Part shown: piece after piece, positions 8,624 through 16,006 of the stretch
How the letters are laid out: every line of letters starts with the position of its first letter
Position numbering within the stretch: position 1 is the stretch's first letter
NCBI GenBank assembly: GCA_012513435.1
Contig: JAAZCE010000039.1
Coordinates: 1 to 64,000 of the forward strand
Direction of reading: 5' to 3'
Length of the DNA: 64,000 nucleotides
DNA from: Clostridiales bacterium
GTDB taxonomy: Bacteria > Bacillota > Clostridia > Peptostreptococcales > Anaerovoracaceae
Made by a program: the position numbers and the translations under genes
Notes under the pieces: model-generated
Database searches by the model: none
Seen by the model: the letters and a program-made list of their open reading frames with translations, nothing else
Told to the model about the DNA's origin: nothing

Positions 8624-9175
8624 ATGAGCGTGGATTATATCTGCCGTGAAGTCAAACGGCTGAAAAAGAAATACCATGAATCAGACCCGTTCAAGCTGTG
8701 CGATGCTATGGGTATCATACTTCTGGATGCGCCAATGGGTAACTACCAGGGAGCCTGCAAAGGATTTTTCCTGACGCAGAGCCGGAAACGCTCCATCACA
8801 ATCAACAGTGATCTCCCAGAAGAACTTCAGCGTATTATTGTCACACACGAACTGGGTCACGCTGTACTCCATGCCAAAGCCGCCGGGGTGAATGCCTTCC
8901 ACGACTTTGAACTGTTCGACAGCGCCTCTATCATGGAATATGAAGCTAATATTTTTGCAGCCGATTTTCTCATGGACGATGACGATGTCCTGGAAAAACT
9001 CAACGAGGACATCTCCTTTTTTGGTGCGGCCGCACTCTTACGAGTTCCACCAGAACTACTGGATTTCAAATTCCGTCTTATGAAACGGAATGGATATAAA
9101 ATGATCGATCCTCCCTTGATGGCAAACAGCAACTTCCTCAAGAATGTAGAAACGGAGGTACATAATGAATATTAA
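8624..9175 (+). CDS. ImmA/IrrE family metallo-endopeptidase
   Basis: VTHELGHAVLH zinc motif followed by EYEANIFAADFLM. Confidence 0.92.
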   Translation: MSVDYICREVKRLKKKYHESDPFKLCDAMGIILLDAPMGNYQGACKGFFLTQSRKRSITINSDLPEELQRIIVTHELGHAVLHAKAAGVNAFHDFELFDSASIMEYEANIFAADFLMDDDDVLEKLNEDISFFGAAALLRVPPELLDFKFRLMKRNGYKMIDPPLMANSNFLKNVETEVHNEY

Positions 9176-13104: not shown

Positions 13105-14163
13105 CTATTCATGGTTTCTTACTGTAAAATATAGTGTTTGATCAAATCTTCGCTCTGGACTCAACAGTTCAATGTAACCCGGCTCAATTATTGAGTGAAC
13201 AGCCTCTTTAGGTAAGATAGGCCTTGCCGTTCGTGGGCTTGATACATAGTTTTTCCACTTATTGCCAGGAACTGAAAACTCCTTATCAGTTTGGTTTCCA
13301 AATGCCATCTGCCGATAGATATCAACCACTCTGATTTTTCCGCTTTTACTCAACTCCCATAGGCAACGAGCCAACCGTGCAGATGCCCTCATTGGACGGC
13401 TCATAGTGGATACAACCTCATAAGAAGCATCTACAAACAAACGTGAGAACGCATAGTCGCTCCAAATCACTATATCAAAAGCCTGATCTGCAAGTAAAGG
13501 AGATTTTCCCTGTGTTTTCCACAGTGTCTGCATCAGCAACGGCTTTTGACGCATATAGTACCGTGACTGGAATTCATCAATGGCGCGACTTAGTGCTGGA
13601 ATTTTATGAGTCATCTCGAAGTCGTTGTCCCAACTTTGGATTGAAGAACAAGCTTCTTCAAATATCTCTCGTACGATTGCAGAATCGTTTTTCACAGCAT
13701 CAAACATACCAAGCGCACAATATGATGTTGTAGCAGAGCGAACCACCATTTCTGAACCCCAAAGCTCCTCGCTCTTCTTGTATGTTGTGTTATCTGGAAG
13801 GACTGTCAGTTTAACCTCTAAAGGTGATAAGAAGTTTCCTTCTAAGTCTTTGACAACTAAGTCGATACCATCAACCGCATCAAACGAATACTGTTGGTAT
13901 GGTTCAAATACGCTTTCAAAGGCAAAATACAAATCTGAGGCATGGCGGTCACCACAATTAAACACCTCGCGTATGGGTATTTCAGATGACACAACTTCTA
14001 AGCGACCGTTTCGTTGTTCCAAGTGTATGTAAATCGCCGGAATATCATTTTCGAGCATATAACTGGCTGTAGCCGCAGGAAAGCTGGAGTTAAAACAATT
14101 CTTTCCCCAATGATCCGCGGGCTGCCTATTGGAATGCTCAATTCCAAATAATCCGCTTGGCAC
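13105..14163 (-). CDS. Type II restriction endonuclease, HindVP family (expected site GRCGYC)
   Basis: SGLFGIEHSNRQPADHWGKNCFNSSFPAA, DLYFAFESVFEPYQ, LEVKLTVLPDNTT resemble HindVP family; GTG start at 14163 preceded by GGAGG; divergent from C5 methylase. Confidence 0.78.
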   Translation of the reverse strand: MPSGLFGIEHSNRQPADHWGKNCFNSSFPAATASYMLENDIPAIYIHLEQRNGRLEVVSSEIPIREVFNCGDRHASDLYFAFESVFEPYQQYSFDAVDGIDLVVKDLEGNFLSPLEVKLTVLPDNTTYKKSEELWGSEMVVRSATTSYCALGMFDAVKNDSAIVREIFEEACSSIQSWDNDFEMTHKIPALSRAIDEFQSRYYMRQKPLLMQTLWKTQGKSPLLADQAFDIVIWSDYAFSRLFVDASYEVVSTMSRPMRASARLARCLWELSKSGKIRVVDIYRQMAFGNQTDKEFSVPGNKWKNYVSSPRTARPILPKEAVHSIIEPGYIELLSPERRFDQTLYFTVRNHE

Positions 14164-14191
14164 AAAAACACCTCCATCCTTGGCTATAAAT

Positions 14192-14232
14192 GACGTCAAA
14201 TACTTGACGTCTTGTCGCCGTTCGTTTATAAT
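14192..14232 (+). promoter_or_regulatory. Methylase promoter TTGACG-17-TATAAT overlapping GACGTC sites
   Basis: GACGTC at 14192-14197 and 14206-14211; -35 TTGACG 14204-14209; -10 TATAAT 14227-14232. Confidence 0.75.
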
Positions 14233-14308
14233 AGAAGGGCAGTTTAAAATACAGAAACTACCGTTTGTATTATATCACATACACACAAAAAAGAATAGAG
14301 GCAAAGTA

Positions 14309-15502: not shown

Positions 15503-15967
15503 CTAACAAATTGTTTTCAAAAGTATCGTCAGTTTACCGTCCTCACAGATAACATTGACGTAATCTCCGGAGTTAAATCCTGCGGCTTTAAGCCAGTCAC
15601 CTTTGAGAAGGATTGACGGAGTCGGTTTATATTTATAACCAGATGACTCGTGAACCTTCAGTTGTCTTTCAGTCCGGGCTGTAGATTCCCTTTGCTTTGC
15701 CTTTTCTTCCAGGACATATTCGTCATGTGACTTTATTTCCGAAACCGCGTCAACAACGGTTCGGCAGACTCGATGCTGATGGAAATAGCGGTCACTCTGT
15801 TTGTGTTTGTGGTAAAGTGTTATTTTTCGAGGCGCATTATAAATGTTTTTGAACACGCTCCAACAATGCCCTGTATTGGCAGAGCGGACTTCAATAAACT
15901 GCTCCGTTTCTCGAATCACCTCAAAATAAGGGTCATATAGCATTTTTTTCTCTTTTCTTGTGAACAT
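15503..15967 (-). CDS. SymE-like toxin-domain protein
   Basis: C-terminal PSILLKGDWLKAAGFNSGDYVNVICEDGKLTILL matches the SymE type I toxin/AbrB-fold pattern; ATG 15967 with GGAGG. Confidence 0.65.
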   Translation of the reverse strand: MFTRKEKKMLYDPYFEVIRETEQFIEVRSANTGHCWSVFKNIYNAPRKITLYHKHKQSDRYFHQHRVCRTVVDAVSEIKSHDEYVLEEKAKQRESTARTERQLKVHESSGYKYKPTPSILLKGDWLKAAGFNSGDYVNVICEDGKLTILLKTIC

Positions 15968-16006
15968 CAAATTCCTCCTCGATTTAATCCCAAATAGGTA
16001 AAAAAT

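Follow-up and report, generated by a model that had tools for sequence, protein, structure and literature searches.

A twin GRCGYC element conserved upstream of HindVP-family methylase genes: a probable methylation sensor of the methylase promoter

Among the restriction-modification systems that come closest to the one described here, CfrBI has divergent genes with inverted repeats and a recognition site in the methylase promoter, and methylation silences the methylase gene (M) and releases the endonuclease gene (R) (PMC12707154; the same promoter-methylation logic is set out in PMC6237814). In AhdI and LlaDII methylation of the recognition site also regulates the methylase promoter, with an effect on the methylase gene only (PMC12707154). 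Early methylase and delayed endonuclease are likewise the outcome in systems with methylase-repressors (SsoII, Ecl18kI, EcoRII and MspI) and in C-protein systems such as Kpn2I (PMC6237814). According to a 2025 review, the use of promoter methylation for timing is logical but apparently rare (PMC12707154). For systems that recognize GRCGYC, a search of open papers gave no description of regulation.

The locus considered here lies in a stretch of 64,000 nucleotides (JAAZCE010000039.1, positions 1–64,000; the window) from a genome of 2.28 Mb, and its features are collected in Table 1. The initial annotation, made from the DNA letters, had described R and M as sharing a gap of about 145 bp with two GACGTC sites 14 bp apart, the second of which overlaps the methylase promoter, and all of this is borne out. 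The limits of the gap, 14164–14308, are correct because the endonuclease most likely starts at a GTG (14163) with GGAGG upstream and the methylase at an ATG (14309); a TTG at 14199, given as the endonuclease start in a mechanical listing of open reading frames, is a less likely choice and would overlap a GRCGYC site. Both GACGTC sites are found, and the predicted methylase promoter consists of TTGACG (14204–14209), a spacer of 17 nt and TATAAT (14227–14232), matching the sigma-70 consensus at 11 of 12 positions. No controller (C-protein) gene is present between R and M within the 145 bp gap. What had been overlooked is that the M-distal site is as conserved as the site at the −35 box, and that the two together form a 20 bp inverted repeat.

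Table 1. Features of the restriction-modification locus in the window.
Feature	Position	Strand	Basis
HindVP/BsaHI-family restriction endonuclease gene	13105..14163	-	PF09519 match, start and Shine-Dalgarno, motifs
20-bp inverted repeat GACGTCAA-ATAC-TTGACGTC, comprising two GRCGYC sites 14 bp apart	14192..14211	.	Conserved at exact length in 35 non-redundant loci
M-distal GRCGYC site, within the endonuclease 5' leader and at about -48 to -43 relative to the methylase promoter	14192..14197	.	
M-proximal GRCGYC site, overlapping the methylase -35 box	14206..14211	.	
Predicted methylase promoter, TTGACG-17-TATAAT, start about 14239	14204..14232	+	11/12 consensus; -10 spacing kept in homologues
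Endonuclease promoter (predicted) with extended -10 TGATATAAT, pointing towards the methylase promoter; start about 14262	14269..14277	-	
C5-cytosine methyltransferase gene, 380 aa	14309..15451	+	C-5 DNA_methylase (PF00145), E=1.1e-64; TRD alignment

The assignment of the endonuclease to the HindVP family is confirmed by a full-length match to Pfam RE_HindVP (PF09519; E=6.7e-89, profile positions 1–326 of 332) and by the presence of both an ExK motif (E128-V-K130, numbered from the TTG at 14199) and SPERRFD, which place it with the endonucleases of the GRCGYC systems BsaHI, HgiDI and HindVP (PMC2413257). In HindVP itself, which is inactive, ExK is missing (PMC2413257). We found no phage relatives of the endonuclease, and no solved structure for any relative. 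The methylase resembles those of the same systems in its target recognition domain (TRD), which has an Arg 11 residues before a T-L motif with an adjoining Gly or Ala (PMC2413257); the agreement is with the published description of the GRCGYC family rather than with characterised sequences placed in a direct alignment. Across the loci surveyed below, both those with twin sites and those in which M precedes R, the recognition region RHPRNYxRR[G/A]...PT is near-invariant in the TRD alignment. Because of these endonuclease motifs (E-V-K and SPERRFD) together with this near-invariant methylase region, the target of the window system is likely to be GRCGYC, and the specificity first proposed is thereby upheld by homology. 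M.BsaHI methylates the central C of GRCGYC (PMC2413257). The window itself contains 16 GRCGYC sites, as against 27.5 expected from shuffles and 27.2 from a maximal-order Markov model, a depletion that fits the expectation under long-term restriction.

An alignment of four endonucleases was used to scan genomes, each species being represented once, and yielded 60 HindVP loci; to these we added E. coli, Citrobacter and Morganella plasmids, mapped R and M in each, and removed near-identical intergenic regions to leave a non-redundant set. Conservation of the sites in homologous loci, named as a check in the initial annotation, proved strongly positive: in 36 non-redundant loci a pair of GRCGYC sites closely precedes the methylase gene, with a spacing of exactly 14 bp in 35. 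Divergent loci carry the twin in 33 of 37 cases (32 at exactly 14 bp, and L013 at 13 bp), and it is also found in all three non-divergent loci where M has an upstream region of its own, namely L042, in which R leads to M across a 226 bp gap, and the convergent loci L044 and L050, all of which keep the element before M. It is absent from all eight tandem loci of M-R order and from the four R-to-M loci with little space between the genes. The element goes with the methylase and not with the divergent layout. BsaHI differs from the window system in being an M-R pair, six bases apart, for which no regulation is described (PMC2413257), and the M-R operons of the survey are without the twin. The host names of the loci span Bacillota, Pseudomonadota, Bacteroidota, Spirochaetota, Victivallaceae, a Desulfobacterota-like group and Coriobacteriia, or about seven phyla, single assignments being soft because several of the genomes are metagenome bins. 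In L003, L006–L009 and similar loci the system is plasmid-borne, in E. coli, Salmonella, Morganella and Citrobacter; the plasmids are small and mostly mobilizable, and the mobilizable ones of E. coli are convenient for laboratory tests. HindVP-type endonucleases of Pseudidiomarina and Idiomarina (L054–L058, L060 and L068) match only from about residue 44, and the flanks fetched with them hold no related methylase; they are possibly solitary or truncated.

The pattern GRCGYC-N8-GRCGYC has a single other occurrence in the 2.28 Mb genome, and that one is without the TTGAC core. When the methylase upstream region was shuffled with dinucleotides preserved, 0 of 200 shuffles matched as well for each locus with an intact 20 bp element, and an unbiased pattern search of 398 genomes of the phylum gave three matches, two of them at HindVP loci and one, taken as chance, in a murein-ligase-like coding gene. 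A search of all fetched loci with GRCGTCAA-N4-TTGACGYC returned exactly one match per element-bearing locus. The GRCGYC letters of the 35 elements of length 20 partly reflect how the elements were chosen, since they were gathered with that pattern; the features that follow do not. The degenerate positions that the search left open are A or G only on the left and T or C only on the right in 42 of 42 matching loci, and AA always follows the left site except in two plasmid loci, where it is TA. As GRCGCC is never used at the left site, the GTCAA...TTGAC symmetry must itself be constrained. At the M-proximal half, the sixth base of the −35 box is always G (TTGACG) and never the consensus A (TTGACA), so that the methylation site has been preserved at the expense of an optimal promoter. 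In an alignment anchored on the element, the flanking columns carry little information except for the TATAAT block 17 nt after TTGACG. The outer positions co-vary somewhat, with five G..C pairs observed (Fisher p=0.006, uncorrected for relatedness).

A further feature missed in the initial annotation is the extended −10 that faces the endonuclease gene (Table 1). Motifs of this kind (TGnTATA[AC], in R orientation, between the methylase −10 and start codon) are present in 20 of 32 divergent loci, as compared with a mean of 0.7 and a maximum of 5 in mononucleotide shuffles, and a strict match is absent from the other 12. Because this −10 lies inside the M leader, the predicted R and M promoters point at each other, and each transcript would cross the other promoter. 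The same −10 would also make the twin part of the endonuclease leader, a short way ahead of the ribosome-binding site. The distal TTGACG was considered as a −35 for the endonuclease and set aside, as there is no convincing −10 at 16–18 nt and the ribosome-binding site occupies that spot.

Taking the anatomy of the locus together, we think it probable that the methylase promoter senses methylation through the 20 bp twin GRCGYC element, in a CfrBI-like switch without a C protein, as the initial annotation had predicted. The basis for this is direct in the anatomy, the protein family, the conservation, the variation limited to R and Y, the retention upstream of M when gene order changed and the conserved facing −10. 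As twin copies of the system's own target are kept across about seven phyla, the methylase probably shuts down its own synthesis after the DNA has been marked. While the DNA is unmethylated, the near-consensus methylase promoter would be strong, and would interfere with the weaker endonuclease promoter opposite it in the methylase leader; promoters arranged in this way point to transcriptional interference and not to competition for one binding site. As methylase builds up, the central cytosines of both sites would become methylated; at the M-proximal site the predicted targets are the C that forms the fifth base of the −35 hexamer and the C opposite its sixth. A methylated −35 would then be poorly read by sigma, methylase synthesis would drop, and endonuclease transcription would be released.

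The CfrBI logic is the most economical reading of this arrangement. As in CfrBI, the system's own recognition site lies within the methylase promoter, here at the −35 and conserved, with the switching itself predicted. The target site of CfrBI is a different one, however, and here there are two sites at fixed spacing, found family-wide and in about seven phyla; moreover, the R promoter apparently lies within the M leader and faces the M promoter. The overlapping and competing R and M promoters of CfrBI may have a counterpart in this layout, a facing extended −10 being present in 20 of the 32 divergent loci. In AhdI and LlaDII, which are other enzymes, the methylase promoter is regulated by methylation of the recognition site, as is predicted here; in the window the methylase transcript would cross a predicted endonuclease promoter. 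Early methylase and delayed endonuclease would also be an aim in common with the SsoII, Ecl18kI, EcoRII and MspI systems and with Kpn2I-type systems, but these use an added DNA-binding domain or a C protein, neither of which is seen here, and an operator unrelated to the recognition site. Since promoter methylation is already known, the novelty would lie in a family-wide, two-site version of it on C5 enzymes with facing promoters, and the whole enzyme family offers an evolutionary record of promoter methylation that includes natural site-loss variants.

A single site would suffice to block a −35 box, but conservation of the distal site and of the adjoining GTCAA is just as strong, and extends to L042, L044 and L050 despite their non-divergent R. 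The twin of L050 apparently lies over the −10 and start region of a TTGACA promoter and not at the −35, and methylation of the −35 may therefore not be the sole mode of action; this reading is tentative because the −10 of L050 is weak, and on that footing it suggests that the element can act from more than one promoter position. A possible, though more speculative, extension of the sensor model is that the twin is a dedicated operator of two sites and four methyl groups, portable from one promoter position to another as L050 suggests, both sites of which need modifying before the switch flips, and that it has been kept intact as a self-contained timing module across about seven phyla. The second site thus hints at a multi-step switch, and a two-site operator, if true, would give a sharper or delayed response compared with the single-site CfrBI case.

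A different explanation, to which we give a rather low probability, is that the methylase acts as a repressor by binding at its own promoter, the 20 bp repeat serving as a two-site operator and methylation being either secondary or a means of tuning occupancy. The symmetry of the repeat beyond the recognition sites (GTCAA...TTGAC), the spacing of nearly always 14 bp and the retention of the element at a shifted promoter position in L050 are all consistent with such binding, and methylases such as SsoII control transcription of their own systems (PMC3978073, PMC6100179). However, the window methylase has no N-terminal DNA-binding domain, its Pfam methylase domain beginning at residue 3, and two methylases placed 14 bp apart would be expected to crowd. 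A C-terminal extension of about 80 aa (FxxWL...SRxxR...SQ[IL][KR]RA...) comes and goes among close relatives and has no Pfam match; a role for it as reader of the operator is not supported, as many twin-bearing loci are without it. It is much less probable that the element acts as an RNA hairpin in the endonuclease leader, near the ribosome-binding site, to control translation or transcription of R. For most loci the fold of the element is a perfect 8 bp stem closed by a 4 nt loop, situated 8–45 nt ahead of the R start, but in L042, L044 and L050 the element lies upstream of M and outside the R leader, which makes a hairpin weak as the primary function; a base pair is also broken in the R-sense RNA of four non-redundant divergent loci, and folding of the window leader is barely above that of shuffles (z −1.67). 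A coincidental overlap of site and −35 through their common TTGAC, free of any regulation, would explain part of one site but is scarcely credible, as it leaves unaccounted for the sixth-base G, the completing Y-C, the second site, the fixed spacing and a variation confined to R and Y, and this across 35 intergenic regions with little else in common, whose shuffles never yield the element.

Natural variation within the family bears on the history of the sensor. In a quick tree of 52 methylases, many inner branches of which are weak, the M-R tandem loci fall outside a large twin-bearing group and the presence of the twin takes six changes. L042, L044 and L050 are inside the twin-bearing group, and the element therefore appears to have stayed with the methylase through changes of gene order. 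Two loci, L019 (AACATC...GATGCC) and L041 (GATGTC...GATGTC), keep the 14 bp layout with both sites gone, and in neither does the recognition domain or the endonuclease look damaged. Of the six changes, four are C-to-T type transitions at the central CpG, which holds the cytosine that M.BsaHI methylates, and, as far as two cases allow, the loss fits deamination of 5-methylcytosine.

Elsewhere in the window, a gene at 8624–9175 (+) gives a weak match to an spr1629-type repressor/antitoxin (E=3.4e-6, below the cut-off) and has a HELGH motif in its translation. Directly after the methylase gene and convergent with it is a gene of the SymE-like toxin family (15503–15970, minus strand; Pfam SymE_toxin, E=7.9e-12).
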